Assembly (NCBI GenBank): GCA_036971475.1
Contig: JBAIZL010000001.1
Location: forward strand, 104,598,850 to 104,662,849
Origin: Prosapia bicincta
Lineage: Eukaryota; Arthropoda; Insecta; Hemiptera; Cercopidae
Length of the DNA stretch: 64,000 nt
Direction: 5' to 3'
Shown: positions 231 through 62,675 of the stretch, piece by piece
How positions within the stretch are numbered: the first letter of the stretch is position 1
Layout: every line of letters begins with the position of its first letter
Made by a program: the position numbers and the translations under genes
Notes under the pieces: model-generated
Databases searched by the model: none
The model's input: only the letters and a program-made list of their open reading frames with translations
What the model was told of the DNA's origin: nothing

Positions 231-275
231 TGTGGTGAGGTACCTTTCGGTCACTTGACAATTGTCGAATCACTC
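231..275 (-). ncRNA. Hammerhead-like motif, family P1, minus strand
   Basis: On the minus strand: core TCGACAA, one extra T, a stem II pair partly eroded on its 5' side (TGTC against GACC), GAAA, then AGG/CCT closing a very short stem III. Stem I (GTGAT with ACCAC) has one mismatch. Probably a decayed copy of the motif at 618-659. Confidence 0.4.
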
Positions 276-280
276 CAGTG

Positions 281-322
281 GTTTTTCAACAATGGTCAAG
301 TGACCAAAAGGTACCTCATCAC
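281..322 (+). ncRNA. Decayed hammerhead-like motif, family P1
   Basis: Core TCAACAA, extra T, stem II GGTC/GACC with loop AAGT, AAAA in place of the conserved GAAA, then AGG/CCT. The change in the GAAA block should abolish activity. It is the upstream partner of the better-preserved motif at 618-659. Confidence 0.4.
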
Positions 323-411
323 ACAAGGTAAAATTATTGCACTTAGTGGTGGAAAAAATTATTTACAAGTAATAATAATAACTTCATAAAGTCAGTGCAA
401 CAAAAAAAATA

Positions 412-621
412 ATGGACAACGTGAAATACCACGATTTTAACACCAACCAAAGTAAACCACTCTACTGGAAATATCTTAACCTCAAAATCAAACTCCAGAA
501 TTGTATTAACAGAATAAATTTTAATAAAAAATGCACAACACTCAATATCATAACAAAATACGCTAAACTACACTTAAGAAATAAACAAAATACAATCATT
601 AACAAAGCAACAAAACAGTGA
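412..621 (+). pseudogene. N-terminal fragment of a Penelope-like reverse transcriptase ORF
   Basis: A 69-residue reading frame begins just after the pseudo-LTR. Its middle resembles the N-terminal region of Penelope-like polyproteins: a KYLNLKIKLQNC-type helix followed by residues rich in K, N and I. It then runs straight into a second copy of the 3' hammerhead/terminal repeat at 618. The whole reverse-transcriptase and GIY-YIG body is missing, so this is an internally deleted derivative with no enzymatic function. The assignment rests on its position between two P1 terminal repeats plus weak similarity, so it is tentative. Confidence 0.45.
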
Positions 622-659
622 TTCGACAATGGTCAAGTGACCGAAAGGTACCTCATTAC
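618..659 (+). ncRNA. Well-formed hammerhead-like ribozyme motif, family P1
   Basis: Every helix can be drawn. Stem I: GTGAT (618-622) with ATTAC (655-659), one G-U pair. Core: TCGACAA (623-629) plus one extra T. Stem II: GGTC (631-634) with GACC (639-642), loop AAGT. GAAA at 643-646. Stem III: AGG (646-648) with CCT (651-653). Predicted cleavage follows C654. Hammerhead variants with a reduced stem III are known from Penelope-like elements. Caveats: the core is not the canonical CUGANGA, and there is an extra base before stem II. Confidence 0.55.
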
Positions 660-824: not shown

Positions 825-826
825 AC

Positions 827-885: not shown

Positions 886-887
<2 letters not shown>

Positions 888-3722: not shown

Positions 3723-3757
3723 GTTGACGCGTTTCAGAGTAATTCCATTTTCAAAAC
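3723..3757 (-). ncRNA. Hammerhead-like motif, family P4, minus strand
   Basis: On the minus strand: GTT before core TTGAAAA, extra T, an eroded stem II (GGA/TCT), then GAAACGCGTC followed by AAC. GTT/AAC forms a short stem I. Stem III is two base pairs at most (AC/GT). Confidence 0.4.
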
Positions 3758-3983: not shown

Positions 3984-4020
3984 TATTTTGAAAATAGAGT
4001 TACTCCGAAACGTGTCAACA
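3984..4020 (+). ncRNA. Hammerhead-like motif, family P4
   Basis: Core TTGAAAA (3988-3994), extra T, stem II GAG/CTC around TTA, then GAAACGTGTC. It is the mirror partner of 3723-3757. Comparing the two copies suggests the parent had a fully paired stem II. Confidence 0.4.
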
Positions 4021-4705: not shown

Positions 4706-4750
4706 AGACAGAATATTTTCGAACCCTATGTGCCAATCTTCATCAGTGTC
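4706..4750 (-). ncRNA. Hammerhead-like motif, family P5, minus strand
   Basis: On the minus strand: canonical CTGATGA (complement of 4740-4746), an extra A, a partly mispaired stem II region, GAAA (complement of 4717-4720), then ATATTCTGTC. This is the closest to the textbook hammerhead core in the window. Confidence 0.5.
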
Positions 4751-5219: not shown

Positions 5220-5266
5220 GAAGACACTGATGAAGATTGCCACATAGCGATCGGTAACTGTCTCAG
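5220..5266 (+). ncRNA. Hammerhead-like motif, family P5
   Basis: CTGATGA (5227-5233), extra A, six-base-pair stem II GATTGC/GCGATC (one G-T), then GGTAA where GAAA is expected, then CTGTC. Stem II is intact but the GAAA block is mutated. Confidence 0.45.
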
Positions 5267-11903: not shown

Positions 11904-14396
11904 CAGTCGGCGCCGCTTATTGTGATCACGGTTAATGTTATCATTCGGTTATTGTTATCGTTTCATTGAAAAACAAACACGGACGTATATTAATACATTG
12001 TAATTAGGCCGCTTATTGTAATCATCTGTTCGCTTATTATTATCATTTAATTTGCCATTAAAAATCATATGCGTCAACGTATACTAGCACAGACCAAGTA
12101 AAAATGTCTACAAAGTAGTGTAAACAGCACGTACAACACACAATGACGCCCAATTCATAGAATGTTTATTTTTAGAATGACAGAAATACTTTATAACGGT
12201 TTCAGCACTTAGCACAGTTCTCAGAATGTCTCCCTTACTCTTTGTTTACGCAAACACCCTAGCCTTGCTGAGTCGACTTTAGTTGTTTGTTAACATTAGT
12301 TGATGTTACTACTGAACCATTTACAGTACAGTCCTACTGTATTTTTTAACAGTGAATTTTTATGAAGTTTATTACAGTATTTCAGTGTGACTTTACATAA
12401 CTTAATTTTTAAAGATCTTTTTCGTTTGTTTTGTAGAGTTTAGTGTCACTTGAAGTTTCAAAGGACAGTATAGCAAGATGTCCGAATCTCAAAAGAAATG
12501 ACGCGATTTAAGTCTTAAACAAAAACTTGATATTCTAGATAGGTACAGTAAATTACCAAAAATGAGTCAAAGAAACGCTGCTTCTCATCTTGGCATTTCT
12601 CAACCTCTCTTATGTAAAATATTGAACAACAAAGAAAAAATCTTGTAATTATCAAAGTGTAATGCAAATGTTGACAACAAAAGACATCGTTCTGGGAAGG
12701 ATCCGCAAGTGGAATCAGCTTTGAAATTGTGGTTTAAAAATGTTCGCGAAAAAGATGCTCGAGTTGACGGCCCACTAATGCGTCTAAAAGCTGAGGATCT
12801 TGCCAAAAAAATAGGAAAACAGGATTTTAAAGCCACATATGGATGGTTCAATCGATGGAAGAAAAGGGAAAACATTGTTTACAAAAAAACGTGTGGTGAA
12901 AAAAGAAATGCTGATTTTGTTGGAGCTGAGGACTGGTTACAATACGAATGGCCAAAGATTTTGGCCGAGTATTCTCTTAGCTGCATATACAATGCAGATG
13001 AAACAGGACTTTATTATCGTGCTTCACCCGAACATACTTAGTTATTTAAAAATTAAAGTGCTAACGGCTGTAAAATATGTAAACAAAGAGTAACTGTTTT
13101 GTGTTGTGTTAACATGGTTGGTCATAAAGAAAAACTCTTAATTATCGGTAAATCTAAAAATCCACATTGTTTTCAAGGTATCAAATGCTACTGGTTGAAT
13201 ATCATTCAAACTCCAATGCTTGGATGACATCAAAAATTTTTAATGAATGGCTGACTAAATGGGATACCAGCCTCAAACGCAACATTGTCCTTCTACTAGA
13301 CAACTGCACTGCACATAATGGCATAAGCACTACGCTAAAACACATCAAAGTGATTTACCTTCCGGCCAATACTACATCAATTAATCAGCCATGTGACCAA
13401 GGCATAATTAAAAATCTCAAAAGTTTTTATCTGCGTGCTAGAATTATAGAAAATATGGATGAATTTCAAACCCTTACCTCAAATGAATAGGCTAAAAAAA
13501 CTTCTTTACTCGATGCTATTCATCTGATAGCAAAATCTTGGAATGAAGTTTCTGAAAAAACTGTGAAAAATTGCTTTAGAAAAGGTGTTTTTTTTGTTGA
13601 AGAAAATCAAGAGCAAGCTACATCTGAGGAAGACTCTGAAGAGAACTTGAAGCCTTTCGATTTGTCCTTAAAAGAATATACTGAGTGGATGGAAGTTGAC
13701 GATAGTATTGAAACAGCAGCGGAAATGACTGAAGACGATATTTGTGAGGTAGTTGCTTCAACATCAAAAGTTACTGAAGAAGAAGAAGATGATGACGAAA
13801 ATGATAAATGTGTACCGCAAAAATCTAAGCAGGAGGTTCACCAAGCTCTTGAGATTCTAAGGCAGTTTGTTCAACAAAAAGCAGAAAATTTCAACAAACA
13901 TTATGAATATGAACAATTTATAAACAATATTTTACGAGAAGACTACAGACAGTCACATATAGAGGAATTCTTCGAGAAAAAGTAAATGTAAATTTGAAGT
14001 GTAAATAAGATTGAAGTGTTTTATAATGAAGTTGTATGTGTTAAAATGTTTTGATCAAGTGTTTTACGTAGTTCTATATACTGTATTTTTTCAATTATGC
14101 TAGATTCAGTGTTTAAAAAAAATCTACAGTGGAATAAAATAAACTGACAAGAAATATGCCCACTAATTTTAACAAGTAGAAAACTAAATTACAGAAATTC
14201 TACTACTGTACATAAAACAGTCCGGAATAGCATCAAAATTTGGTAAGTACAGTTTAATTATAGTTACAGAATTAGAATTACTTGATGTAATGATACAGTA
14301 GGTTCAATCCAGTACGGCTGTAGACTACATCGTGATTAAGCGTTCGGTTATTGTTATGCTTCTGACAAATATGATCACAATAAGCGGCGCCGACTG
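11904..14396 (+). mobile_element. Tigger (pogo superfamily) DNA transposon, 2.5 kb, inactive
   Basis: Perfect-looking terminal inverted repeats start CAGTCGGCGCCGCTTATTGT at 11904 and end with the reverse complement at 14396, bordered by TA on each side (11902-11903, 14397-14398). Subterminal repeats of CGCTTATTGTAATCA type recur at 12010-12060 and 14340-14380. The interior carries a CENP-B/jerky-like transposase with stops and a frameshift. It sits inside the family R solo LTR and is therefore younger than it. Confidence 0.92.
12478..13985 (+). pseudogene. Tigger/pogo transposase, broken
   Basis: Starts at ATG 12478 but meets TGA seven codons later. It continues in frame with a pipsqueak/CENP-B-type helix-turn-helix (SLKQKLDILDRY, HLGISQPLLCKIL), a second stop near 12646, and a Tc5/CENP-B second DNA-binding domain (12709-12900, WFKNVREKD, YGWFNRWKKR). 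The DDE core follows: first Asp in YNADETGLYYR (about 12990), second in LLLDNCTAHN (about 13300), third in QPCDQGIIKN (about 13395). A stop near 13039 and a frame change separate the first Asp from the rest, and a TAG lies near 13488. The acidic C-terminal tail (13563-13985) is open. DDD spacing and TA targets are typical of Tigger. The lesions make it inactive. Confidence 0.88.
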
Positions 14397-19612: not shown

Positions 19613-20955
19613 TAAAGAACACAATAGATCTAGTAAACAAAATAAAGAACATTGAAATCCCTCATAACTCAACCTAGGCATAGTTTGACATCACAAACCT
19701 ATATACCAATATCCCAGTCACAGAAACACTAGACATATTATGAGACAATCTAAGACTTAACAACACTCCAGAAAAAATCACAAAAGAAATCATACACATT
19801 TTGAACACCATTACACAACAGAACTACTTCACTCACAACAACAAATATTACACACAGAAACAAGGCCTACCAATGGGTTCACCGATTTCAAGCATTCTCG
19901 CAGAAGTATTCCTACAACACATAGAACAGAATAATATCATAAATAACAACAAACACGCAGATAAGGTAATATATGGGCACAGATATGTAGATAATATAGA
20001 TATGCAGACGTTATAGTACTATCCTGAGGAAACATATCCTGAGGAAGACAATGCCAACAACTCCAAACACATACGTATAAACAAAATACACAAAAATATC
20101 AAGTTCACTGCAGAAGTTGAAAACAACAAAACATTGAATTTCTTAGACATCACCATAACAAAAAATCAAAACAAACATAAATTCAACATATACCGCAAGC
20201 CAACTATGACAGACACATTGATACAAAATTCATCGAATCACCCAATACAGGTACAACATAAACACGCAGTATTCAAACATTTACTACACAGACTAAATAA
20301 AATACCTATGTCCACAACTAACTACACAGAGGAACTAAACACAATCAAATATTTAGCCCTCAAAAATGGATATGCCAATTTCTTAATAGACAAACTACAC
20401 AGAAAAATACTCAACAAAAATAGTAACAACAAAAACACCCTCACATACATAAACAAACTCACAAATAAGATAGCGCACCAATTCAAAAAAGCAGGATACA
20501 ATGTAGCTTACAGAATAACAAATAAAAGCCAAGCAGCTATCAGACACAGCATTAATAACAATACCAACACATACAATAACCCAGGAGTATACAAACTAAA
20601 ATGCAACAACTGCAATAAGTTCTATATTGGACAAACATGCAGATCTTTTGCCGAAAGATGTAAAGAACACAAAAGGGTACTGCACACTTCTATTGAATCC
20701 ACCTTCGCAAATCACCTCATGGACACTAAACACTCATGCAAAAGTATGGAAAATAACATGAACATCCTCCACACATGCAAAAAAGGTCATAAATTAAACT
20801 CACTAGAACAGTTTGAAATATATAGACATAGCAACACACATAAAAGTGACATCTTAAATGAACAAACTTGGCACAGATCACACATACTTTTCGATCACAT
20901 CACTTCTAACTTTCAAAAAGATGGTACCGAGGAAGCACAACAGCAGCATTCCTAG
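19613..20955 (+). pseudogene. Penelope-like retroelement polyprotein: reverse transcriptase plus GIY-YIG endonuclease, 5'-truncated
   Basis: The coding remnant starts inside the reverse transcriptase: FDITNLYTNIP near 19690, QGLPMGSPISSILAEVFLQ near 19865-19920, and the polymerase box read as YVDN instead of YVDD near 19987. A stop follows at about 20014. The frame from 20134 is open for 273 residues: NFLDITI and IYRKPTMTDT (RT thumb), then a GIY-YIG domain with GVYKLKCNNCNKFYIGQT, the catalytic Arg in RSFAERCKEH, and the Glu in LEQFEIYRH. It ends SHILFDHITSNF-rich at 20955. This RT then GIY-YIG order defines Penelope-like elements. The Asp-to-Asn change, the stops and the missing 5' half make it non-autonomous. 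Confidence 0.9.
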
Positions 20956-20967: not shown

Positions 20968-20993
20968 GAGGCTGAAGAAGTCGTAAGACGAAA
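20968..20993 (+). ncRNA. Hammerhead-like motif of the PLE (family P6), split by a MITE
   Basis: Only 12 bases after the PLE stop codon: GAGG (20968-20971), CTGAAGA (20972-20978), extra A, stem II GTC/GAC with GTAA loop, GAAA (20990-20993). The complementary half of stem I, CCTC, is at 21712-21715 on the other side of the 703-bp MITE, so the motif was complete before that insertion. Confidence 0.6.
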
Positions 20994-22332: not shown

Positions 22333-22619
22333 TTACGTGTTATATTAAGCACGAAAGGGTTTTAAAAATGATCTTTATTTTTACAAACCTTTGAATTTAA
22401 TAAACAATTAATTTGGAAAACTGTTACATAAATTATACTTAATAAAACAATACAATTGATATGCACTCAATTGGAGTGGAAAACGTCTGTGCGATACAGA
22501 GGCGACTTACACACTGCCGGGGCTCTGTTCTCACCACCTATATAATACAAAAGCTGCGTAAGCAGGAATTTTCCTAGCACGCATTTAATTATGAAATGTT
22601 CACATAAAATGTTCATATA
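22331..22619 (-). repeat. 3' LTR of the errantivirus
   Basis: Identical to the 5' LTR except for three substitutions (near 22359, 22373 and in the GGGGCTCTGTTCTC block). The env stop codon falls inside its first bases, as often in this group. Confidence 0.92.
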
Positions 22620-24174
22620 ACTCCTCCATCCCTAAAGAAAACTTCGGGGGTTGGCGAAGTTTCGGCATCGGTCGAAGTCCTCTTCATCTTCTTGATGAGG
22701 GCGAAGTATATAAGGCTGCTGAATACGCCTCCGTAAAGGGCAATAGTCCAGATACTGATATGGTGGGTTATTTCCATAGTTGGATCAATTCTTGAGATGG
22801 TTTCCGTGTTTATTTTGTCCAACTCTAGGCGTTTAACGTTTACTGAGAATTCTGGCATTTTACTCATTGAAAATTGTAGTTTGGACGTGTCCATGAAAAT
22901 AGGATGGCCTCCCGAAGTTGTTGATGTATGGCTCAGTTTCATGTTGTTGAAAAAGACTGAATCATTATTAGTTTTATCAAATATATGCCTTGAAGGGTGA
23001 CGGTGGTAGTTGCCTTGCGATTGGTAATTTCCAGAGTCTGCTTGTTGGGGAAGGTTGCAAGGTAAAGGTTGATTTCTGGGATCCAGTTAATTAAGTTGTC
23101 TGTAACTTCCAATGCAGTATATTCACAGTTGCTGGCATCGTTGTTCCTGATGATGTACACTTCACAGTCTAATTTATGGTGTGTTAAAATGTCGAATGAG
23201 CAAAAGTATATGGAATCGGTTTTACAGTTACATTCATTGTCCAAACCTAATATTACAGAGTTAGACACTAATATGTACCTTACTTTTGGTATAATTGTTA
23301 CATAATCTGTTTCATATTTTGTGGGTATAGAGTGTAATTTATACAATTTAAATTGAGTTTTTTCTACAATGGGTAAATTTATAAAGTATACAATCCTTTC
23401 AGAATCTAGTTTACAATTAACCTTAATCAGGTTCTCTGATTCCCACATATTTTCCATTTTAGGTTCTAAAGGTAACCTCTCTGTAATATTTATAAATTTT
23501 GTTTATTTCTTCATATAATTCTTGGGTTGAAATAACACTAGGGTGTACAACACCTAGTTTACAAAATGTAAGAGAATTTTCTAAATCTGTGATTACCTGT
23601 AACATCATGTCATATAAAATGTTCAATTGATTTAGAATACTTCTAAATTTTTCTAGTTCAACAAAGTCATTTACATTACTATTCACAATACTTAACTTAT
23701 TTTTTAATTCTATAAAATTTTCATCAATTACAATAAAAGTTTTATTTAATTCTTTCATAATATTATTACTAAAGGAGTATTGAGATTCAATTTGATAATT
23801 AATTTTAATTTGCTCATTTTCAATATCTTTAATTATTTTGTCATATTTTTTACCATCATATGCATCTAAATTGCCTGTTAAAGATTTGATAACGGATCCT
23901 AGTCCGTCTATAAGACCTCTTTTTGTTCTTTTGTTACCATTCTCTTACAATTGTAGCAACTAGTTTCAAAATTTTGCAATACATCATAATAATAAGCATC
24001 AATGTTATTTAAATGAGCAACTAAGTTTCTTACATTAAAATAGTGGACAAAGGTATGGTAGGAAGATTCTAATTTGACCGGCCCAAGGTCTATTGGGATT
24101 ATTCCGAGGTTGTTGTTGACTTCTCTGATCTCTGCTGAGTCGGTGGCTGTGCCAATGACGAACAGGAGGGACAT
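22613..24174 (-). pseudogene. env: Errantivirus env-like gene, broken by several frame changes
   Basis: This is the third gene of the element. In other errantiviruses it encodes a membrane glycoprotein related to baculovirus F proteins. Visible pieces in order: an N-terminal segment with a hydrophobic start (23908-24174), a stretch with an RTKR-type furin-like site next to a Gly-rich segment near 23895-23925, a helical segment (23459-23758), a Cys-containing ectodomain part (22939-23457), and a C-terminal part (22613-22942) with one clear transmembrane segment (ISIWTIALYGGVFSSLIYFA) and a short charged tail. The pieces lie in at least three frames and are interrupted by stops, so no full-length product is made. 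It is probably expressed from a spliced RNA when intact. I describe the breaks only. Confidence 0.8.
22620..22634 (-). promoter_or_regulatory. Polypurine tract
   Basis: On the minus strand AGGGATGGAGGAG lies immediately upstream of the 3' LTR, the expected site and composition for plus-strand DNA priming. Confidence 0.7.
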
Positions 24175-24209
24175 GGAAAATTATTTTGAGCATTAATTAC
24201 ATTTTTTAT

Positions 24210-27200
24210 CTACTTAGGCCTTTTAATTTTCGAAAAATATATCTTGTCTTTTGTGTTATGATGTCTAGGCTTTATTTTACCAGTTTTTCTTTCCTTGTTT
24301 ATTGAAGCTATCTCTTCCTTGCTATATCTGTTTTTCGTTTTGCTTTGTTTCTGAACTGACTTTATATAAACTTCAGATGGTATTTCTGGAAGTGGTTCTT
24401 TGTTTACATTCTTTTTTTCTAAAACTTTATCTTTAATTCTTTGATTGCTATCCCTAATGTTTTCGTAAAGTATTTTTGTCTTTTCTTTATGGTTTAAAAC
24501 GTAGTCATTTACAATTTGTTTTTCTAAATCTATATCTAATAAATTGTTTGAATTTATGTGTCCAAATAAGACTTCGCACGGCGTTAATTTTGTGACTGAA
24601 TGTATGCTATTGTTATAGGCTACTATAGCATATTTAACTTTCTTAATTATACTGTCTTTTTTAAATTCGATTTGATTATTTAACAGCCTTATGTGTTCTA
24701 TTAAGGTGGAATGAAATCTTTCACATAATCCGTTTGATTGGGGGTTTTGTGTGCTGATAAAGTGAATTTTGATTTTATGCAGGTCTAGTATCTCCTTTAC
24801 AATTCTGTTATTAAACTACATTCCATTGTCTGAAATAATAACTGTTGGTAAGCAGAAATGCATGAAGTAATCTAATAGCTTGTCTGCAATCTCTGTAGCT
24901 TGAGAGCTTCCCAGGCGATAAACTTGAGCATATCTAGTGAAACTGTCAACAATGCTGATAAACGAATTCTTCTCCAAAGAGATAGTGTCAACGTGAATTA
25001 TCTGGAATGGTCTCGCAGCTGTTGGTGTCAAGTTCATTTCCAGCTGTAAGGGAATTCTGTCGTATTTGGTTCTTTGACATATGTCACACTGATTTATGAA
25101 ATTTTGGATTAGTGATTTTAAATTAGGCCAATAATATCTTCGCTTAATTTGTTCGTATGTTTCCTGTATCCCACGGTGATTGGTTTTGCTAACATGATAA
25201 TTACTTATCGTTTCTAAGGTATCTTCTTCCGAAGTTAGGTCTAAGAGTTTGTTATTACACTTAACTAAATTTAGTTCAGTTTGTTTGAAATTTTTGGCTA
25301 TGCATGATGCAAATTTCTCATAAAAATCGTCTTCAAAATATAGATTATATTTTATTTTGGGTACCAAATATGATTTTACAAAATTAACTATGTCTTCTTT
25401 AAAATTATTTTCTGATATTTCGACTATTAAACGAATTTTTGAAGTTCCGAATAGTTTTATAATTTTTACTTTCTTTGGCTCATATTTTACTAATGATAAA
25501 AATATTTGATTTTTTCCAAAGTTTACAGGCTCGTTGGAAATTGGTATTTCAATTTGGGTGTTCCCTTCAAAATTGGAGTGCACGGTTTGACTGTCACTTT
25601 CTTGATCGTACTCTAAGTTGGCATTATCTGTTGCGTCGAGTTGTACGACCATAGATTCACTATCTTCATTTAGTTCCGGGAAGTAACGATTCAGTAAGCC
25701 GGCTGGAGATAATTCAAGGTCTGGTTCTACAGTGTGTTGGGTGTTTGTTGACCTTTTATCAGTAACATTCAATTGTATCCTAGACAATGCATCTGCATTT
25801 TGATTTAGTTTGCCTTTTTTGTATCTTATGTCATAATCATATTCTTCTAATTTTAATCTCCATCTTTAAAGTTTGGAATTTGGTTCTTTAAGTGAAAATA
25901 ACCATTGTAAAGGTTTATGGTCTGTATAAATTTAAAATTTTGTCCCAAATAAATAAGGCCTGAAATGTTTGGTGGCCCATACGATCGCTAATAATTCCTT
26001 TTCAATCGCGGAGTAATTAGTTTCGCTGTCGTTTAAAGTTCTGCTGGCATACGCTATAGGAAGGTCTTTTCCATTTTTGTCCTGGCTTAAAATTGCTCCT
26101 AGTGCAAAATTACTAGCGTCAGTCGTTAGAGTAAACTCCTTTTCAAAATCTGGGTATTGTAGAAGGGGCTCGTTAGTCAATATATTTTTACATGTTTCAA
26201 AACATTCTATAAAGTCTGGATTTTCTATGTTTATTTTTGCATTTTTCTTTAAACAGTTAGTAAACGGTTTTGTTATCTTGGCGAAGTTTTTAATAAATTT
26301 TCGATAATAGCCTAATAGTCCTAAAAAGCCTTTAATTTGTTTGGTGGTTTTAGGTATTGGGTAGTCCTTGATTGCCAAAATCTTTGCTGGGTTAGGTTTT
26401 ACGCCATCTGGTGTCACAACATGTCCCAAATATGCCACTTCTTTTCTTAAAAATTCTGTTTTATCCAGCAGTACTTTAAAGTTGGCTTTGCGTAATCTGT
26501 CGAAAACTTCTTTAAGTCTTTGTATATGTTCTTGGAGGCTAGTAGAATAAATTATAATGTCATCTAAATAAACTAAACATGTTTCATTTTGGATGCCTCT
26601 CAGAATATTATTCATAATTCTTTGAAATGTAGGGGGGCTATTCTTTAGTCCAAAGGGCATTCTTAAAAATTCGTAGTGTCCCGTTTCTGTTGAAAACGCT
26701 GTTTTTTCTATGCTATTTTTATCCATTTCTACTTGGTGAAATCCTGAGGCTAAATCTAAAGTTGTAAAATACTGAGATCGTCCTAATTTATCTAATATGT
26801 CGGTAATGTTTGGCAAAGGAAATTTATCGTCAATTGTTTTCTTGTTTAATCCTCTAAAATCTATTACTAATCGAAATTTTCTTTTGCCAGAAGCGTCTTG
26901 TTTTTTGGGTACAATCCAGACAGGAGAGTTCCATGGAGAATTTGAAGGTCTAATAATTCCTTGTTCAAGCATGTCCTCAGTTTGTTTATTAATTTCGTTC
27001 TTGTAAATCTCTGGATATCTATAATTTCTAGAGTATACGGGAATTTCATCAGTAGTCCTAATAACATGTTTTATTTGGTTGGTAAAAGTTAAATCGTTTC
27101 CCTCAATATGGAATAAATCTGCATAATCTTCTATTAAACTTGTTATAGCGGATTTTTCTTCCGAGTTCATATGTTCCATTCTAAATTTTGATAAATCTAA

Positions 27201-28033
27201 ATTTTTTCTTCTCGATTTTTTTTGTTTATAATCTAATAAATTGAAATTAGCGTTCGTTTGCATTGCATCAGGTTTAAGGATATTGTATTCTTCTAAAGAT
27301 TTTAATTCTAATGGTTCATTTACTGTTAATTCTACATTTACTTCTGTGTTGTTTATTATAGGGCAGTAGGCTTCTCCCTTGTGTACTGAGACTATACACT
27401 GCGGAATTTCTAATCCATTAAAGTGTTTGTATGGTAAGAGTCATTCTCCATCTTGAATATTTTGTATTCTAAAATTAATCGTTCGGCTAGTGCGGGCTTG
27501 TATAACATAACTTGTTCCCTTTTTTGCTTTCTGTTCCTGACATTCGCTTCTATTATTATTATTATTATTATTTTGTTCTTCTGTGTTAAAATATTTAATC
27601 GGGATTTGCTTATTGCGAAATATTAATTTATCATTCACAAAATTTAAATTAATTTTTAATTCTTTTATGTTATCTAATCCAAGGAGTAAGTCAAAATCTT
27701 TATGGAAATCAAACAAATAGAATTTGGTTTTGTTTCTTTTCCTAAAAGTGGTAGCGTACAACTGTATTTTTCTTTTGATACTCCATGAGCTGTACTCACT
27801 TCAAATGGTTCTTGTTTTAGGGTGTTTTTGAAAAATTGGAAAGCTATTGATTTTTTTATAAATGATCTCGTGCTTCCAGTGTCAATCAGCATCTTTAGGT
27901 TGGTCTTGGGATCGTGGATGTACGGTAGTTCGTTTGTGTTGTCTTCGATATGCATTATGGAAAATGTCTTTTTATTGTGGTTAGTCCTAAAAAATGATTT
28001 TGGGTATGATTGTCCTCTTGAGTGAATCCGCAT
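24210..28033 (-). pseudogene. pol: Errantivirus pol (protease, RT, RNase H, integrase), interrupted
   Basis: Overlaps the end of gag in the -1 frame, the usual gag-pol arrangement. Domains in order: aspartic protease with LIDTGSTRSF (about 27870-27895); reverse transcriptase (about 26570-27060) with [25 protein letters not shown] and the catalytic box [10 protein letters not shown]; RNase H with [13 protein letters not shown] and a TDHKPL block; integrase with a His/Cys zinc region (HRGIQETYEQIK, CDICQ), IIHVDTI, IISDNGM, and the DDE Glu in QSNGLCERFHS (about 24720). The lesions are a frame change within the protease part (27674-27761), TGA at 27441, TAA at 25932, TAA at 25866 and TAG at 24816. 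The frame otherwise stays constant to its natural end near 24210. Catalytic residues are retained. Confidence 0.92.
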
Positions 28034-29052
28034 GCGTTTTCCTCTTGCGTGGAATCATCATAGTCTATGTAGCTGTCAGGGTCCTCTTGCGGTTCATAAT
28101 CCGTTTGTTCGGTCAGATAAGAGTTAGTCATCTGTTCAGTCAATCGATTCATAGTTTGATCGTAATTTTCTTCTTTTATTGGTTTCCCTGTCATCTGATA
28201 AAGTCTATTTTGTCTAATTGTGTTCCCTGTTTGACGTGTGGAAATGCTCATTGGTTCTGGTTCAAATTTTTGATGAACTTTTAATGGTGTGTAATTGTTA
28301 GACTGTCTTGGTTGTTGATTTTGCTGTACGCATAAGTTAGGTTTAGTAAATTGGTTAGGATTACTTTGGTAGTTTGGCCTATAATTTTGGAAGGTTTGCT
28401 TGTTATTAAGGGATTTGCGAATAAGCGGGTATTGTGGGGCCCTAGGTGGAATGTTCTGTTTAATATTTTGAAATAATTTGTTATTTTTAAATTGAAAGTC
28501 ATTAGTAAGCATGTTAAATGCTTCGCTAAGAGAATCTGGATTTTTTGTTCGCATTAGCGATCCTACGGGTTCATGTAAACCTCTAAGGAGAACTCTTAAC
28601 CCTAATTTCTGTACATATTCTATCAAAACATCTTTGGCCAATTGTCTTTGAGGCTCTTTATTAACAAAACATGAAATCTGTAAATTTAATAGTTTTTGAA
28701 TTCTCTCATAAAATTTAAAAGGTGATTCGTTATTTTCTTGTTTTAACTCAGCCATTTCTAAATTTAAAGTAAAACAATCTCTTTTGTCTGAATAGCTGGT
28801 TAATAATACTTTTTTAATCTCATACCAATTATATGAATTTGAGTTTACTACCATTTCTAATGCTTGGCCTTTTAACTTAGCTAGTATAGAAGAAAATAGA
28901 TATTCATTTTGAAAATCCTCTGGATTTTCGTTTACATAAAACTTATTTACTACTTTATCACATATTGAAATAAATCTGTTTAGCATAGTGGGCTCTCCAC
29001 TATACTCAGGAATCATATCAAGATATTCCTTCTTTAATGTTGGCGTTGCCAT
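27955..29052 (-). CDS. gag: Errantivirus Gag, open reading frame intact
   Basis: A 365-residue frame starting MATPTLKKEYLDMIPEYSG about 400 bases after the primer site. The first two thirds are alpha-helical, with a capsid-like region (about residues 10-190, containing YNWYEIKKVLLTSYSDKRD and ESPFKFYERIQKLL). The tail is Asn/Gln/Pro-rich and lacks a CCHC zinc knuckle, as in Gags of the 17.6/297 group. It packages the element RNA. It is the only undamaged frame in the element, and pol follows by -1 frameshift in the overlap. Confidence 0.88.
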   Translation of the reverse strand: MATPTLKKEYLDMIPEYSGEPTMLNRFISICDKVVNKFYVNENPEDFQNEYLFSSILAKLKGQALEMVVNSNSYNWYEIKKVLLTSYSDKRDCFTLNLEMAELKQENNESPFKFYERIQKLLNLQISCFVNKEPQRQLAKDVLIEYVQKLGLRVLLRGLHEPVGSLMRTKNPDSLSEAFNMLTNDFQFKNNKLFQNIKQNIPPRAPQYPLIRKSLNNKQTFQNYRPNYQSNPNQFTKPNLCVQQNQQPRQSNNYTPLKVHQKFEPEPMSISTRQTGNTIRQNRLYQMTGKPIKEENYDQTMNRLTEQMTNSYLTEQTDYEPQEDPDSYIDYDDSTQEENACGFTQEDNHTQNHFLGLTTIKRHFP

Positions 29053-29458
29053 TTTAAAATATTATTTTCTTTAAAATAATAAAATTAAAAATCAATTATA
29101 TAAAATTAAAAGTATTTACTCTACTTTTCTTAATTCTATATCTTAAGATCTACTTACAAGTTGATCCAAAATACTTTGCTCATTTGAACAATTTTCACTT
29201 TTCACTTACACGACATTCACTCGTGCTCTTAATAGATATTCGCTCTATTAAGTGGTTGTAGATATTCAATCTACTAAAGTTTTCTTGATGTCGTTACAGA
29301 TATGCGCTCTGTAACGAATCGAGTTTTTGCAGTATCTCGGTTAACGATTGAAATCGAAAAAATTATGTTCAATAATTCTTCCGAGATGTCCTACCAATGT
29401 TTTCCTCAATTAACGGTTAAAACCGACGGACGCTATATTCACTAACTTCCTTGAGGTG

Positions 29459-32317: not shown

Positions 32318-33535
32318 ATGTATTCAGGCTGTGATATACCTGTAATGGATTACAATACTAGTAACCAGAATGCAGATACAATATGTAATTACGCATCTGT
32401 AATGTCTGCACCGGTGGTGACTATTAAGAAAGACACCAATAAAGTATTCAAATGCAAACAATGTCGCTATGTAAGATCAAAGATATATGAACTAATAATA
32501 CATTTGAAGAAACACATTCATAAAAGACTGTATAAGAGTTCAACATCATACTTAACTACATTTAAAAAATACTTTAAATCCCACTCAGTAGAAAAACCAT
32601 ACAAACATTTACAAAATGATTATTCAGGTAATCAGTCAGGCCATAATAAAGTATATATGTTTGAATATTCCAGTGAAAAACCATGTAAATGTTCACAGTG
32701 TTATTATTTAACTTCAGGAAAAAAAGATCTTATTAAATATATCCATACCCATTCTGCAGAAAACCCATACAAATGTTCACAGTGTAGTTATTCAGCTTCA
32801 AGAAAAGGAAGTGTTATACATATGCATATCCATTCTGGTGAAAAACCATACAAATGTTCACACTGCAGTTATTCAGCTTCATTAAAAGGAAATGTTATTA
32901 CACATATGCGTATCCATTCTGGTGAAAAACCATACAAATGTTCACAATGCAGTTATTCAGCTTCATTAAAAGGAAATGTTATTACACATATGCGTATCCA
33001 TTCTGGTGAAAAACCATACAAATGTTCACAATGCAGTTATTCAGCTTCATTAAAAGGAAATGTTATTACACATATGCGTATCCATTCTGGTGAAAAACCA
33101 TACAAATGTTCACAGTGCAGTTATTCAGCTTCAAGAAAAGGAAATGTTATTACACATATGCATATCCATTCTGGTGAAAAACCATACAAATGTTCACAGT
33201 GCAGTTATTCAACTTCAAGTAAAGGAAATGTTATTACACATATGCGTATCCATTCTGGTGAAAAACCATACAAATGTTCACAGTGCAGTTATTCAGCTTC
33301 AAGAAAAGGAAATGTTATTAGACATATGTGTATCCATTCTGGTGAAAAACCTTACAAATGTTCACACTGCAGTTATTCAGCTTCAAGAAAAGGAGATGTT
33401 ATTACACATATGCGTATCCATTCTGGTGAAAAACCATTCAAATGTTCACAGTGTAATTATTCAGCTTCAGTAAAAAAATATCTTGTTAAACACTTGCGTA
33501 CCCACACTGGTGAAAAACCATACCAATGTTCATAG
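32318..33535 (+). CDS. C2H2 zinc-finger protein with near-identical tandem fingers
   Basis: A 405-residue frame. Likely a nuclear DNA-binding protein; its target is unknown. Finger 1 (residues about 43-67, FKCKQC...HLKKHIH) is divergent, followed by degenerate finger remnants (about 70-135). From residue about 150 come ten fingers in a 28-residue, 84-bp period with the linker HSGEKPYKCS. Most have the helix LKGNVIT or RKGNVIT, and three consecutive fingers are identical. One finger (SVIHMHIH) lacks one residue of the usual spacing. The last complete finger is more diverged (SVKKYLVKHLRTH). The frame ends at TAG 33533-33535 exactly where the Gln of the next SQC is expected, so the stop is probably a nonsense mutation; finger coding continues behind it. 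A splice acceptor at 32266 precedes the ATG. Confidence 0.85.
   Translation: MYSGCDIPVMDYNTSNQNADTICNYASVMSAPVVTIKKDTNKVFKCKQCRYVRSKIYELIIHLKKHIHKRLYKSSTSYLTTFKKYFKSHSVEKPYKHLQNDYSGNQSGHNKVYMFEYSSEKPCKCSQCYYLTSGKKDLIKYIHTHSAENPYKCSQCSYSASRKGSVIHMHIHSGEKPYKCSHCSYSASLKGNVITHMRIHSGEKPYKCSQCSYSASLKGNVITHMRIHSGEKPYKCSQCSYSASLKGNVITHMRIHSGEKPYKCSQCSYSASRKGNVITHMHIHSGEKPYKCSQCSYSTSSKGNVITHMRIHSGEKPYKCSQCSYSASRKGNVIRHMCIHSGEKPYKCSHCSYSASRKGDVITHMRIHSGEKPFKCSQCNYSASVKKYLVKHLRTHTGEKPYQCS
32765..33505 (+). repeat. 84-bp tandem repeat encoding zinc fingers
   Basis: Nearly identical units containing TGGTGAAAAACCATACAAATG recur every 84 bp. Nucleotide identity, not just protein identity, is very high, pointing to recent unequal exchange or gene conversion. 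Confidence 0.9.
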
Positions 33536-33621
33536 TGTAATTATTCAGATTCAGTAAAAGAATATCACTAAACACTTTTAAATGTTTTAAACTCGCCTAT
33601 AGTAGCACTTACTTTGTTTGT

Positions 33622-33663
33622 TGAGGACGGCCGTTTCGGGAGATGTGTCCCTTTGTCAACTCA
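33622..33663 (-). ncRNA. Hammerhead-like motif, family P2, left arm
   Basis: Mirror of the right-arm motif: on the minus strand TGAG, TTGACAA, A, GGGA/TCCC stem II, GAAAC-GGCC-GTC, CTCA. Confidence 0.6.
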
Positions 33664-33692
33664 GACCGTAACTCAACTCAGGAGTTACAGTC

Positions 33693-33734
33693 TGAGTTGA
33701 CAAAGGGACACATCTCCCGAAACGGCCGTCCTCA
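33693..33734 (+). ncRNA. Hammerhead-like motif, family P2, right arm (best formed in the window)
   Basis: Stem I TGAG (33693-33696) with CTCA (33731-33734). Core TTGACAA (33697-33703) plus extra A. Stem II GGGA/TCCC. GAAA at 33719-33722. Stem III AC/GT around loop GGCC. Predicted cleavage after C33730. All three helices pair without mismatch. It differs from canonical CUGANGA by U at position 3 and A at position 8. Confidence 0.6.
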
Positions 33735-34059
33735 ACAAGCAAAGTAAGTGCTACTATAGGCAAGTTTAAACCATTTAAAAGTGTTTAGTGATTACTAGTA
33801 GCTCACGCGAAGATGGAATCAACAAATGTTAAAAGGATATCTTATTAAGCATTTGCATACCCATTCTGTTGAAAAACTGTACAAGTATTCACAGGAGAGT
33901 TATTCAGATTAAGTTGAAGGGCGTCTTGAAAAACAGTTCTTTCTTACTCATATTATTATTTAGAAGTGGATATTATGTGACATAATATTTGTTTAAATAT
34001 TATTTCTCATATTTCACATTCCGTTGCATTGACTTCTTAGAGTTAGTATAAAGTAATTG

Positions 34060-34200
34060 TAAACAATTATTCCACCTTTAAGTGTAATTAATTTTTACCT
34101 TGTGATGAGGCACCTTTTGGTCAGTTGACCAAAAGGTGCCTCACCACAAGGTGAAAAGTGATAGCACTTAATGGTGGAATAATTGTTTACAATTGATATA
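34060..34200. repeat. Palindrome of family P1 Penelope-like 3' ends
   Basis: GTAAACAATTATTCCACC on the left is mirrored by GGTGGAATAATTGTTTAC on the right. The centre, around TTTTGGTCAGTTGACCAAAA, is two fused truncated hammerhead-like motifs. Followed by (CT)n and (TA)n. Confidence 0.7.
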
Positions 34201-34206
34201 TAATAA

Positions 34207-34279
<73 letters not shown>
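34207..34279. repeat. (CT)n-(TA)n compound microsatellite
   Basis: CT run then TA run directly right of the P1 palindrome. Confidence 0.95.
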
Positions 34280-34363: not shown

Positions 34364-34402
34364 AAGCTTTTTGCTGATTTGCACTATCAGCATTCTCAAA
34401 CT
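34364..34402 (-). ncRNA. Hammerhead-like motif, family P7
   Basis: On the minus strand: TTGAGAA, extra T, perfect six-pair stem II GCTGAT/ATCAGC, AAAA where GAAA is expected, then AGCTTC. About 200 bases downstream of the GIY-YIG remnant. Confidence 0.45.
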
Positions 34403-42967: not shown

Positions 42968-44804
42968 ATGGATAAATTAATGAAAAGATCATCAGAACCA
43001 TCAACTTCTAGCGGGAGTAGTGGACGACAAACGAAAAAAAACGTATGTTTGATGACAATTATTGAAATTTGGGTTTACTGTGATTGAGAAAAAAACCTCA
43101 GTGCATAATTTGCTTTGAAACTTTGTCAAGAGAAAGCATGAAGCCATTGAAGTTGTTACGCCACCTAAACACAAAACATCCTAATGAAAAAAATAAACCC
43201 TTGGAATTTTTTGACCGAAAATTAAAAGCTCTTGAACATAAAAAAACTGCCATAGTACAAATGTCCAATCTAAATGAGAAAGCATTGCTCGCTAATTATC
43301 GAATAGCTTTTCGTGTGGTTAAAGCAGGAAAACCTCACACTGTTGCCGAAAATTTGATTTTACCAGTGGTTTTAGATATAGTAGAGGTTATGTTTGGCAA
43401 GCAAAAGGTCGAAAAGCTCAAAAGTATACCTCTCTCTGACAATACCATTCAACGCAGGATAAGCAATATGGCTACTGAAATTTGTGACCAGTTATAGAAA
43501 AAATAAACAAAAGTTCTTTTGTGTCGTTGCAATTTGATGAATCAACGGATATTGCGGGATGTACGCAGTTTGTAGCTTATGTGCGTTTTGAATCCAGTGA
43601 AAAATTACTGGAAGAAATACTATTTTGCAAGGCACTTCCCAGGAATACTACAGGTCAGTGCTTGCTTGACATGTTCCTTGAAGCTACGCAAGATATGAAT
43701 TTCGATTGGGCACAAAAATGCATTGCTATTTGTAATGACGGAGCAAAATCCATTACTGGTGCGAAGAGTGGATTTATTGCTAGACTGAAAGAACATATGC
43801 CAAGCGCTTGTTGGATGCATTGGTTTCTCCATCACCAAGCTCTTGCAGCCAAAACCTTGCCACAAGAATACAGTCAAGTACTAAAATATTATTATTAAAA
43901 TTGTAAATTCTATTAAAGGAAAAGCATCGCAGACTCGATTGTTTCGAATCATTTGTGAAGATATGGGGGCAGTCCACCAACATTTGCTTTACCATACAGA
44001 GGTTAGGTGGTTATCAAAAGGCAAAGTACTGACCAGAGTTATGGAACTTCGTGCTGAACTATTAGTATATTTACAGCAAGCCAAATCAGATTACTCTGAA
44101 TTCATTTCTGACCCGGAATTCCTTTTGAAAGTGGCTTTTCTTTCTGACTTATTTCTGCATTTAAATAACTTGAATAACAGTCTTCAAGGGCGGGATGAAA
44201 ATGTCATCACAGCAAAAGACAAACTGCATGGCTTCATAAAAAAATTAAATTGTTGTCATCATCTATAAATGAAAAAAAACTTTGATTCATTTTCTTCAAC
44301 ACAGTCTTTCATTGAAGAAGTCGGAAGTGAGATAAACATCAATTCATATATATCTGGTATGAAAATGGTGTTAGATAATTTGAAGAAAGAGTTGTGTCAG
44401 TACTTCTCAGTGCAAGAGATATCGGATAACACTGGGGGAAAGATCTTAAATCCGTTTTTAAATGCAGCTATAAATGAGGCAAATTTAGCAACTAAGTTCA
44501 AAAGAGAATCTGCTGGAATTATCTGCTGACGGGATGTTATACTTGGAATTCAAGTCTCAAAGTTTGGATACCTTTTGGTTAAAAAGAAAAACAGAATACC
44601 CTGAATTAACAATCGAGGCTTTGAAGTGTCTGATTCCATTTTCTACCTCGTACTTGTGCGAGTTAACATTTTCATCAATGGCCCACAAAAAGTAAAGAAA
44701 GAAATGGCTTAAATTTGGAAAACGATTTAGTACTTAAAGTTACAAAAACGGATCCGCAATGGGAGAAATTGATTGAACAAAATCAAGCGCAATCTTCACA
44801 TTAA
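42968..44804 (+). pseudogene. hAT transposase (ZBED5/SCAND3-like), broken
   Basis: Starts MDKLMKRSSEPSTS and loses frame near 43040. A BED zinc finger follows (43084-43180: CIICFETL ... LLRHLNTKHP). The RNase H-like core has LQFDESTDIAG with the first catalytic Asp (about 43530), CNDGAKSITG (about 43735) and CWMHWFLHHQALAAK (about 43810). The helical region (43939-44530) includes VRWLSKGKVLTRV. The C-terminal dimerisation region is near 44610-44800 (EALKCLIPFSTSYLCELTFSS), ending LIEQNQAQSSH at TAA 44802. Lesions: frame changes near 43040, 43500, 43900 and 44530, and stops at 43495, 44266 and about 44690. Order and motifs match hAT elements domesticated as ZBED5/SCAND3 in vertebrates. Confidence 0.88.
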
Positions 44805-47161: not shown

Positions 47162-47509
47162 ATATTTTATGTTGTCCATTATTTTTCCGTTGCACTGACT
47201 TTATGATGATATATTACTATTGTAAATACTTTTATCCACCACTAAGTGCAATAAGATAAAATTATTAAAATTATATATATATATATTATGTTTTCTTGTT
47301 TAATAATTTAAAACAACATAGGTTGTTCAAATACATTGTTATTCAAATACAAGAATATTTATTAATTTATATTCAAAGCTTTTTGTTGGTAAACAGTACC
47401 AACATCATCAGGAATGAAAATTACAATAATGTAAGCTATAGGCCTAAAACATATGTTAATTTAACACATTTATCACATAACTAGTTAAAAAATATCACAT
47501 ACAATATAT

Positions 47510-48330: not shown

Positions 48331-48355
48331 GTTTTTTTTTTTTTTTTTTTTTTTT
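48331..48355. repeat. poly-T tract before hammerhead-like motif
   Basis: An unbroken T run. Confidence 0.9.
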
Positions 48356-48395
48356 GATTGACAAAGATCATTTTTGATCGAAATATTTCAATAGT
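48354..48395 (+). ncRNA. Hammerhead-like motif, family P3
   Basis: TTGACAA (48358-48364), extra A, perfect five-pair stem II GATCA/TGATC with loop TTTT, GAAA, then TATTTCAA. TTGA before the core can pair with TCAA after it as stem I. Stem III is minimal. Confidence 0.5.
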
Positions 48396-50618: not shown

Positions 50619-51100
50619 AAGGGTCATTGACATCGATAGGCTCCAATAGCTTATTAAAAATCCTTTCCTACATAGATGTAACATCCAACCTACAAATTCT
50701 TCATAAACAACACAGAAATAACCAACGTTACACAACCAAATTTCGTAATACGAAATATAAAAACATTTCAAACTACACCCTACATACGTACTCAACACAC
50801 AATTACATTTTAAATCTTACACTCGTTTTGACATCCTAACTCCTAATGCTCACAAAATACACTCACACCCCTACCATAATATCCCACCCCCACCATAATA
50901 TCTCACCCACCCTAACCTACAAAAACCTTGAGATCAGTTATGGTCTGAGTTGACAATGAGACACGTCTTCCAAAACGGCCGTCCTCAACAAAAATAAGCA
51001 AGTGCTACTATAGGCAAGTTTGTAAAATATTTACAACTGTTTTAGTGAAAACTAGTAGTTCAAATGAAGATGGAATCAACAAATATAGAAAAATATGTTG
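50619..51100 (+). mobile_element. Penelope-like family P2 3' end
   Basis: Contains the P2 hammerhead-like motif in decayed form (50946-50987: TGAG, TTGACAA, eroded stem II, CAAAACGGCCGTC, CTCA), then CAAGTGCTACTATAGGCAAG and GAAGATGGAATCAACAAATA, shared with 33730-33830. The open frame before it (50603-50839) may be a PLE C-terminus but has no clear motif. Confidence 0.55.
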
Positions 51101-59290: not shown

Positions 59291-60812
59291 CAGTGAAACC
59301 TGTTTAAGCCGGAATCCATTGGGACCGGCATTTTTTTCCGTCTGACAGGTTTCCGGCTTATACAGTAGTAGTGTACTGTATGATGGTAACATCACGAAAC
59401 GTTTGCCGAGTCTATTTTTAGCGTTGAGGTGAGGGTAGGCCGTGGGGATTCTTAGCTATAAGACTATTATTTCTACTGATCAGCTGTATGGCGCTGTACC
59501 AACACCACATAGATAACGGACAATTAATTGTCATCGTGTCTACATTTGTTCTAATACAGTATTTAATTAAATTATTTATTTCCAATTAAGTACTGACTGT
59601 TTATTTCCTACAGAGATAACACTTCAACATATAAAGCAAGTGTATTTAAATCACAAGAAAACTATCACATTTTAATGTCTAAATAAACGTCATTCAACAG
59701 TAATATCGGTTATCTTGATTGCCTAATGACAGCCCGTAGCCTGTGCCCTGTGACGTCACAACTCGCAAACCTTGTTTTCTAGGTGGTGTTGGCTAAGCAC
59801 ACTACAGAAAATGTTAAAACCTACATTACATAATAAAAATCTTACCTTTTAATGCAGCATCCTTTTATCCTTCTCCACAAAACATTTTTAATAGAAAACA
59901 CTAAAACTATAAAACTAAAACACTTATACTTCTCCACAAAATTTATGAATTAATGATGCAGTTTATTAAAAACTATATTTTACTTCTTACTGTATTTAGG
60001 CTAAATACTGTACATAGTAGGCTTACGTAAAAATAAAAGAAAATCAAGTAGGCTTGAAAAAAATCTAGCATTGACTATTGTTTTAAAAGGTTAGTTTATT
60101 TGCTTGTGTTTCAGTTATTGTTTTTAGTTGTAACAAATGGTGACGCATTTCCGGGCTGTTAATACGTACCGTGAAATCTTCTAACTCACAAATTTTCATT
60201 AAAGCCTTGCCAAATGTTTTTATTTTGTTTTATACGACGGGTCCGTCTTCAATTTCTTCTCTTTGCGCATGTTTTTTGGCTTTTAGAACAAAGCGGTCTC
60301 TCGCCTTTCAATATGTCAATCAATATGTCTGGCTGTAGATGTTTGTAAACCATTCATTACGTTATCTTGAAGGAAACGAGTGCTGACACATAGCCTATCG
60401 TAAATTATGGATGTTTGTATACCATTGTGTTATCTTGTGCATATCAGCGATCCTTAACGTTGTTACAGAATTCTCAGAAATACATACGATCCGTTACAAA
60501 AGCAGACCTATCTGTGAAGGTTGATATGTTGAAAAAATATATTATAAACTGTATTTTATCTAAACGGAAGTCATTGTAACTTTATATTTTACAGCATGTA
60601 TATGATCAGATTTTCCGGCTTATGCAGAACTAAGACGTAGTAAATACGTATCACTCGTCCTTTTGCTTATTCCGTTTCCGTATTAGACAGTTTCCGGCTT
60701 ATAAAGGTTATTAACCAGATAAATTAAATAGGTGACTGTCGGGACTTTTAAAGTTTTCCGCGATAGATGGGATTCCGCCTAACACAGGGCCCGTCTAAGA
60801 CAAGCTTCACTG
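59291..60812. mobile_element. Non-autonomous pogo/Tigger-type element, 1.5 kb
   Basis: Starts CAGTGAAACCTGTTTAAGCC and ends with the imperfect mirror GTCTAAGACAAGCTTCACTG, TA on both sides (59289-59290, 60813-60814). TTTCCGGCTTAT recurs at 59350, 60613 and 60691 as subterminal repeats. No transposase frame. Inserted in a MED24 intron. Confidence 0.8.
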
Positions 60813-62230
60813 TACCATATAGTTAGCATATTACAATATAAAATAGTAACTTACTGTATATTGTTACAATATTCTAACATTGTATACTTGTTAACACTTA
60901 ATAATGCCTATGTATGTACTAATTGTTGATTTCGATGTTTTATATTAAAGATATATTTTTTTTAAAAATATAGCCTTACATTCAAGTTGAGAATAGAAAC
61001 AAATAATGTTTCAATATTTATATAACTTTTTTTGACATTGGGAGAAAATGATCATATTCAAATTCATAGGAAGAAAATATGATTATTTTCTTCAGTAATA
61101 AGAAAAGTATATTATTTTATCAGACAAAAAAAATCGATGTTATTTTATTCTAATACAACCTTTTCAAAACTTTCAGAGTTATATGACACCAGTTTGGCCA
61201 ATGTAGGGAGCTGTTTATGTAACAACTGCATCAGCTTCTACATTGACCATAAAACAAGTTCTTATACAAACCATGTATCCAATTCTGTTAGTATGAGAAT
61301 TTTGCCGCTACTATCTTTATTCGGTATAACTTTTAAATATTATAATGCAACAGAAAATGTTTTGAGCCAAATGATTTTTAGTAATTATTTTATTTATTTA
61401 TTATTTTTTTGGAGTAAAACAAACTGAGACAAGTTTGTGAAGGAAAGTATTAGGGGCAAAATATTGTTTGAATACAGAGAGAGAGATATGATGTATTTGT
61501 TCAAAAATATTTACATCAATGTTTTTTGAGAAATGCAGTAGTTGGCCAAGCCTTGTGAAATATTCTCACAATTAGACAGCTCTTGCTTAATTTTGATCTA
61601 ACTTTTCAATTTGTTGCGAAAAAATGGTGCCTGCTGCAAGTTCTGCGCCATATGGGTACAACAAATCTTGACTAACATCTCAAAAATGGCACTTGCCTTG
61701 CATTGTTTATATTCCTCAAGCCCTAAAGCAAACGTAATGCAATATAGGTTATGTCAACTTGGATGAAATATGTCAATAACAAAACAGAAAAACAGTCCAT
61801 GGAGTGAGACACAAGACTTATTCTAGAAATCTATTGATATAACTGAAAACTTTATTAAATTATGAAAGAATATAGTTATTTTTTGGGACAGGGAGCATGT
61901 GTTTCAGGTCAATTTCATGCAATGAGGCTCAACAGCAACTCGGAGTAGACCAAATAATTCTAAAGAATGGCACAATTCTAAAAGAATGAAACTGGAAGCT
62001 TGTGCACAAAGTAGGCTCAATTTGTGGGCTGATTATATATAAAATAGCTTTAAAATACGCAAAGTAATTCTCATAAGTGTGCATATCAAATGTATATCAT
62101 ATATTCCCCTTTCAATTATATAACGGAATTATGTTGTACATTTTTAGAAATTTTAATACAAAATTTCTAAAACTGGCATAGTTCTTTACAAATAAATTTA
62201 CTTCAGAACATAAAGACTCGTAAAACTCAC
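60813..62230. other. MED24 intron, nothing recognised
   Basis: Contains a 96-codon open frame at 61137-61427 without any recognisable domain; I do not call it a gene. Confidence 0.5.
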
Positions 62231-62370
62231 TGAAGTGTATTGTGGAGATACTGAGGTAGTACATGCAGTAACAAGCTTAAAGAGCAACTTTCTATATCTA
62301 GATGAAACATTCCCATCACTAAGTCCACAGCTCTATCGAGGTCATCTTTATACCTGAGTTTCAGAATCTC
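62231..62370 (-). CDS. MED24: MED24, most upstream exon in the window
   Basis: Acceptor GTTGCAG, donor GTGAGT. Encodes EILKLRYKDDLDRAVDLVMG, MFHLDIESCSLSLLLHVLPQ and YLHNTLQ. In human MED24 the matching segment is KELLKETRKEHTLRAVELLY then SIFCLDMQQVTLVLLGHILP. 140 bp; the two leftover bases join the next exon as CA|A. The preceding exon is expected to lie to the right of 64000. Confidence 0.82.
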
Positions 62371-62454
62371 CTGCAACATTTTGTCTTTGTCAAATGATAT
62401 GTTTCACTTTCAAAAGAATTAAGTATACTTCAATAAATATTTAGATTTTTTGGA

Positions 62455-62675
62455 CTAGGAGACTGACAGACTTACCTTGGTAAGAGTCCACTCTGTAGTC
62501 TTGAAATAGAAACACATAAAAGCACTTAAACAATGATATATTTCAACCACACAGTGGTCTTTGTCAATCGAAGGGAAACATTGTTTAAGTGCTTTTATGT
62601 GTTTCTATTTCAAGACTACAGAGTGGACTCTTACCAAGGTAAGTCTGTCAGTCTCCTAGTCCAAAAAATCTAAAT
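62455..62675. repeat. Inverted repeat of Penelope-like family P3
   Basis: Arms about 62455-62535 and 62578-62662 are near-perfect mirrors (GACTGACAGACTTACCTTGG on the left, CCAAGGTAAGTCTGTCAGTC on the right). GGTAAGTCTGCCAGTCTCCT at 48466 downstream of the P3 hammerhead shows the family. The loop contains a minus-strand hammerhead-like motif. Confidence 0.7.
62536..62572 (-). ncRNA. Hammerhead-like motif, family P3, minus strand
   Basis: On the minus strand: TTGACAA, extra A, six-pair stem II GACCAC/GTGGTT (one G-T), GAAA, TATATC. Same core as 48354-48395 with a different but still complementary stem II. Confidence 0.5.

Follow-up and report, generated by a model that had tools for sequence, protein, structure and literature searches.

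The question raised by a 64,000-nucleotide (nt) stretch of the genome of Prosapia bicincta (Hemiptera, Cercopidae; GenBank assembly GCA_036971475.1, contig JBAIZL010000001.1, positions 104,598,850 to 104,662,849 of the forward strand; hereafter the window) is whether the hammerhead ribozyme-like motifs of its Penelope-like retrotransposons, some with C at core position 3 and G at position 8 (C3-G8) and others with U and A (U3-A8), are genuine, and whether the joint change at the two positions reflects selection on a folded RNA, as had been proposed from the letters alone (the sequence-only reading). Judged by their layout, the motifs are genuine Penelope hammerheads. The U3-A8 form is real and abundant, and hammerheads of this kind were known before; that selection accounts for the covariation of positions 3 and 8 is not established.

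Layout of the motifs and their frequency

The layout scanned began with stem I and a core of 7 nt, in which G5, A6 and A9 were fixed and positions 3, 4, 7 and 8 left free; then came at most one extra base, stem II, GAAA, 0 to 13 nt, U-H and the 3' strand of stem I. The reversed sequence or the pattern read backwards served as the control. A wider sample of 264 kb consisted of the window and, from the same contig, twenty stretches of 10 kb (4 adjoining the window, 16 at round coordinates); five more 10-kb stretches were scanned without the reversed control, and genome-wide counts refer to 2.2 Gb. Families were assigned by BLAST of the sampled sequence with the flanks downstream of stem II, the core being left out. 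Eleven families were obtained, labelled P1 to P7 and F8 to F11 (in part differently from the labels used before), and the division of P3 into P3a and P3b gave twelve sets.

Hammerhead cores were found at all eight places listed in the sequence-only reading, with the bases at positions 3 and 8 that had been stated there. Regarding completeness, three of the eight carry complete small type I hammerheads (618-659, plus strand; 33693-33734, plus strand, with its mirror copy 33622-33663 on the minus strand; 48354-48391, plus strand), and at the other five the copies are incomplete or weak (four without a stem or GAAA, one with a weak stem I). The strict scan of the window returned the same four sequences, all U3-A8, together with a fifth, A-rich match with a different core, and the reversed window yielded one match, which had no hammerhead core. 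Visible in the sequence are stems I and II, the GA..A / GAAA core, the UH triplet of the putative cleavage site and a short stem III, palindromic or almost so, that lacks a loop of its own and has different palindromic sequences (GGTACC, GGCGCC, CGGCCG, CGCG, ACGT, AGCT).

Across the 264 kb, the strict scan, which allowed up to two extra bases, gave 22 matches versus 4 in the reversed sequence; 15 of the 22 and none of the 4 combined a single extra base with C3-G8 or U3-A8. The relaxed scan gave 40 versus 8 matches with one extra base, 18 versus 23 with none and 18 versus 9 with two. The 3-8 states of the 40 matches were TA (16), CG (6), AG (5), AA (4), CA (3), AC (2), TT (2), AT (1) and TG (1), and no state occurred more than twice among the 8 control matches. 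Genome-wide, the P1 scaffold with the whole core free was found at 9,535 places and the P3 scaffold (T4, G5, A6 and A9 fixed) at 585, versus 0 backwards in both cases, and chance is excluded for P1 and P3 by these counts. The pattern CTGANGA-N(4-12)-GAAA occurred at 66,937 places versus 31,425 backwards, which roughly indicates that C3-G8 motifs are numerous.

The single extra base between A9 and stem II is a class feature here, whichever 3-8 pair is present. It is A in 56 of 58 P3 copies, and its constancy had been noted before in connection with U3-A8; the constancy held up in the relaxed scan, and the connection did not, as the C3-G8 families share the base. Copies that combine T as the extra base with G as the first base of stem II read ATG from A9 onward (620-635; copies L025, L031 and L032). 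For a lizard Penelope element the start codon is reported to be at the beginning of stem II (PMC11167929), and by analogy the extra base might be what is left of such a codon.

Penelope coding sequence was found upstream of P1, P4, P6, P7 and F8. The similarity upstream of P3 was weak (E about 2e-4), F9 and F11 gave one more distant match each, P5 gave a marginal, distant match (E 0.006), and the search upstream of P2 and F10 returned no Penelope match. The P6 reading frame has 26 relatives in the protein database, and its GIY-YIG match in Pfam reached 20.8 bits, just below the cut-off of 22.6. No related Penelope locus was found in the viral contigs searched. Together with the layout, the coding sequence upstream of several families bears out the assignment to Penelope-like elements with a reduced stem III.

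Positions 3 and 8 between and within families

The usual state is U3-A8 in P1 (TCGACAA), P2, P3b and P4 (TTGACAA), P5 (TTGAAAA) and P7 (TTGAGAA), and C3-G8 in P3a, F8, F9 and F11 (CTGATGA) and in P6 and F10 (CTGAAGA). The 3-8 pair is therefore C-G or U-A as the usual state in all twelve sets, positions 3 and 8 change together between sets, and the division of the families into two groups that had been read from the window is confirmed; U4 is present in every set except P1. P5, P7 and F10 are represented by one locus each and P2 by two. Deviant copies were seen in P4 (one CTGATAA, one TTAACAA) and P1 (TCAACAA or TCGGCAA), and one F8 copy lacks the core. In a rough tree of the reverse transcriptase and endonuclease regions P1 groups with P4 (0.905) and P7 stands beside F11 (0.728); the rows are short and broken, and the tree thus gives a hint, weakly suggesting that U3-A8 occurs on more than one branch. 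When twelve motifs were aligned with MAFFT, P1 was displaced by two columns; hence no covariance model was built and the counts were made by position.

Regarding P1, bases were counted by eye in the 81 copies with letters among the first 100 of the 9,535 places. The core was TCGACAA in 73 of these 81, and the single positions were U3 in 81, A8 in 80, C7 in 80 and C4 in 78. In hammerheads U4 is conserved, and position 7 is free in the known ones. Since the free position 7 is equally constant in P1, no core constraint can be measured, and the uniformity of the family, as far as these copies tell, is a reflection of recent amplification.

Regarding P3, the 585 places comprise 165 with C3-G8, 230 with U3-A8 and 11 with C3/A8, the other 179 not being sorted by state. 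Among the first 100 places, position 8 was counted by eye as A in 43, G in 56 and T in 1; comparison of the place lists gave C3 in 21 of the 56 with G8 and U3 in 43 of the 43 with A8. The other 35 with G8 were taken as U3 because all 12 non-C3 copies with G8 that were read had U. On this basis C/A occurred 0 times versus about 9 expected under independence (Fisher p 1.6e-6 for the 3-8 association, uncorrected for relatedness).

Copies with letters numbered 59, their sources including 40 picked loci (9 odd, 15 TGACAA, 16 TGATGA), 14 list-end loci, the window and L013; one copy, a junction without a core, was dropped. The remaining 58 had U-A (32), C-G (13), U-G (12), U-T (1) and C-A (0), in proportions that differ from those of the genome because the sample is stratified. 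The C3-G8 copies mostly have one version of the flanks and the U3-A8 copies another, and U3/G8 copies occur with both. The mutual information in these 58 copies was 0.63 bits for positions 7 and 8, 0.34 for 3 and 8 and 0.34 for 3 and 7; with a flank insertion it was 0.26 for position 3 and 0.20 for position 8. Positions 7 and 8 are not paired and are nevertheless the more strongly associated, so that subfamily descent alone gives an association of at least this strength, and the 3-8 association in P3 may stem from descent. The joint change therefore does not serve as the evidence of a selected fold that it had been taken for, the association not having been shown to exceed shared descent. The frequency of U.G among the copies read and the rarity of C/A fit a pair that changes through a wobble state, although this asymmetry would equally result if the two changes had followed a fixed order within a single lineage.

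The hammerhead loci in their surroundings

The loci of the window, including three entries outside the original list, are given in Table 1. Five of the eight listed loci lie within or between the arms of inverted repeats. The P2 inverted repeat has arms of 111 nt, 96% complementary, with one hammerhead per arm, and the P4 site is placed between arms of 98 nt (62438-62535 / 62579-62676) that are 100% complementary. Head-to-head palindromes of Penelope pseudo-long terminal repeat (pseudo-LTR, pLTR) sequence were observed at 33564-33792, 34039-34210 and 62438-62676, and weak microRNA-like Rfam matches on pseudo-LTR hairpins are probably false.

Table 1. Hammerhead motifs and upstream reading frames in the window
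Feature	Position	Strand	Remarks
P1, two decayed copies	231..323		opposed in inverted repeat (173-269 / 285-381); outside the original list
P1 hammerhead, complete	618..659	+	stem I 618-622/655-659; core TCGACAA 623-629 (U3, C4, A8); extra T 630; stem II 631-642; GAAA 643-646; stem III GGTACC 647-652; UC 653-654
P5 core TTGAAAA, decayed	3723..3754	-	left inverted-repeat arm; one stem II pair mismatched
P5 core TTGAAAA, decayed	3988..4020	+	right inverted-repeat arm; one stem II pair mismatched
F8 core CTGATGA	4706..4746	-	GAAA retained; stem II with mismatches
F8 core CTGATGA	5227..5266	+	GGTA replacing GAAA
Penelope-like reading frame	20017..20955	+	GIY-YIG endonuclease region; 16 nt upstream of P6 core
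P6 core CTGAAGA	20968..20993	+	core 20972-20978; extra A; 3-bp stem II GTC/GAC; GAAA; stem I 3' strand unpaired
P2 hammerhead, mirror copy	33622..33663	-	core TTGACAA; second arm of inverted repeat 33564-33674 / 33682-33792
P2 hammerhead, complete	33693..33734	+	core TTGACAA 33697-33703; extra A; stem II GGGA/TCCC; GAAA; stem III CGGCCG; UC
P7 core TTGAGAA	34364..34402	-	extra T; stem II; AAAA replacing GAAA
F11 core CTGATGA	about 47378..47411	-	core 47405-47411 (C3-G8); AAAA replacing GAAA; outside the original list
Reading frame upstream of P3	47686..48240	+	weakly similar to Penelope proteins; no Pfam hit
P3b hammerhead, complete	48354..48391	+	stem I TTGA/TCAA; core TTGACAA 48358-48364; extra A; stem II GATCA/TGATC; GAAA; TA; UU
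P2 copy, decayed	about 50946..50990	+	TTGACAA; AAAA replacing GAAA; outside the original list
P4 core TTGACAA	62536..62572	-	stem II and GAAA; stem I weak, about 3 bp

Other features of the window include a Gypsy-like element with reverse transcriptase and RNase H on the minus strand (22613-29061), whose open reading frames (ORFs) we take to resemble gag, integrase and an envelope-like protein. A Tc5-type transposase DNA-binding domain and, recognized by eye, broken transposase-like frames are located at 12649-13041 and 43084-44268, with no Pfam hit for the first of these frames. Directly before the P2 palindrome there is a zinc-finger-like ORF (32303-33560) with an 84-bp repeat array of 10.6 copies.

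Interpretation and alternatives

As a whole, the observations are probably best explained by small type I hammerheads of Penelope-like retrotransposons, situated close to where the coding sequence ends and within the pseudo-LTR, that would be cleaved as dimers and whose 3-8 core pair would have two interchangeable Watson-Crick forms, C-G or U-A. Two motifs, either tandem copies in one transcript or copies in two transcripts, would pair through the palindromic stem III and be cut as a dimer, perhaps assisted by the protein of the element, and cleavage would trim tandem transcripts to units starting at stem I. In P3 the change probably passed through a U.G state, and each form would then have been amplified and inherited within its subfamily. 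Two-strand cofolding predicted a dimeric hammerhead for both P1 copies and for F10.

Several observations weigh against this explanation. P2 and P3 cofolded to stem II plus the palindromic stem III with the whole junction incomplete, F9 paired stems I and III with stem II shifted into the core, and P4 and F8 cofolded otherwise. The usual base at position 4 of P1 is C and not U, position 7 of P1 is as constant as positions 3 and 8, and in P3 the mutual information of positions 7 and 8 exceeds that of the proposed pair. In the lizard Penelope element PAc, cleavage was dispensable for insertion in vitro (PMC11167929). The comparison with Rfam hammerhead models, suggested as a check in the sequence-only reading, gave no hammerhead match in the window at the gathering score or at E up to 10. 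Loci with C3-G8 copies were missed likewise, so that these models do not cover the class, and Rfam was set aside as a test of membership.

Part of this evidence would suit passenger relics, that is, U3-A8 families which derive from active C3-G8 hammerheads, no longer cleave and owe their uniformity to recent amplification and shared descent rather than to a selected RNA fold. The stronger 7-8 association in P3, the core forms that track flank subfamilies, the C4 and constant position 7 of P1 and the several window copies without GAAA or a stem all point in this direction. Positions 3 and 8, however, change jointly in all twelve sets (P3 counting as two), the stems of the complete copies keep their pairing while varying in sequence, few places have C3/A8 (11 of 585), and U3-A8 hammerheads from elsewhere were active in vitro (PMC3088659), which makes a relic possible but rather unlikely. 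It is unlikely, too, that the U3-A8 cores with the extra base, above all P1 with its C4, represent a separate lineage working only with its own protein, in which the naked RNA would cleave little or not at all, the ribonucleoprotein would cleave well and the core would drift between C-G, U.G and U-A as the protein holds the fold.

Retention of an ancestral hammerhead shape for some other use, for example as the feature by which the protein recognizes the RNA of its element, would accord with PAc, whose protein binds RNA of the pLTR-ORF junction and whose cleavage is protein-dependent besides being dispensable as stated (PMC11167929), but appears very improbable given that GAAA, UH and the 3' strand of stem I, which are needed for cleavage, are retained in the complete copies. 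Chance matches in AT-rich DNA, for which the scan with no extra base (18 versus 23) and the A-rich strict match without a hammerhead core (one of five in the window) might speak, can be dismissed with near certainty in view of the 40 versus 8 matches with one extra base and the 9,535 and 585 places versus 0, although single decayed sites such as 34364-34402 could be due to chance.

With regard to known systems, Penelope hammerheads with little or no helix III have been described (PMC7761336, PMC6155905). The present motifs were compared by description only with the minimal type I Penelope hammerheads of Cervera and de la Pena (2014) and Lunse, Weinberg and Breaker (2017), as reported in PMC7761336, PMC6155905 and PMC7229834, beside which they show U3-A8 families, one of them with C4, and one extra base in all sets. 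The literature searched contained no mention of U3-A8 in Penelope elements or of the extra base, but its coverage left out the 2014 and 2017 papers, and these features are not claimed as unpublished. U3-A8 as such is not the novelty it had been taken for, as a joint change from C3-G8 to U3-A8 was reported in several natural hammerheads in 2011 (Perreault et al., PMC3088659). In contrast to those several examples, whole retrotransposon families usually have U3-A8 here, and a scaffold that carries it also occurs in U.G copies. PAc resembles the present elements in having a Penelope hammerhead beside the ORF-pLTR junction, and its 3-8 pair was tested by double change: C3G or G8C abolished cleavage and the double change partly restored it. 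PAc differs in that it has C3-G8 and in that its cleavage has been demonstrated, only in the presence of the protein (PMC11167929).

What is of interest here are very abundant U3-A8 families, one of them with C4, and the constant extra base, in a hammerhead class that the current Rfam models miss. A single genome holds thousands of U3-A8 motif copies and a large C4 family, and one scaffold occurs with either form of the core pair. Should the motifs cleave, they would constitute a natural set for testing the variability of the hammerhead core and its compensation by the Penelope protein.

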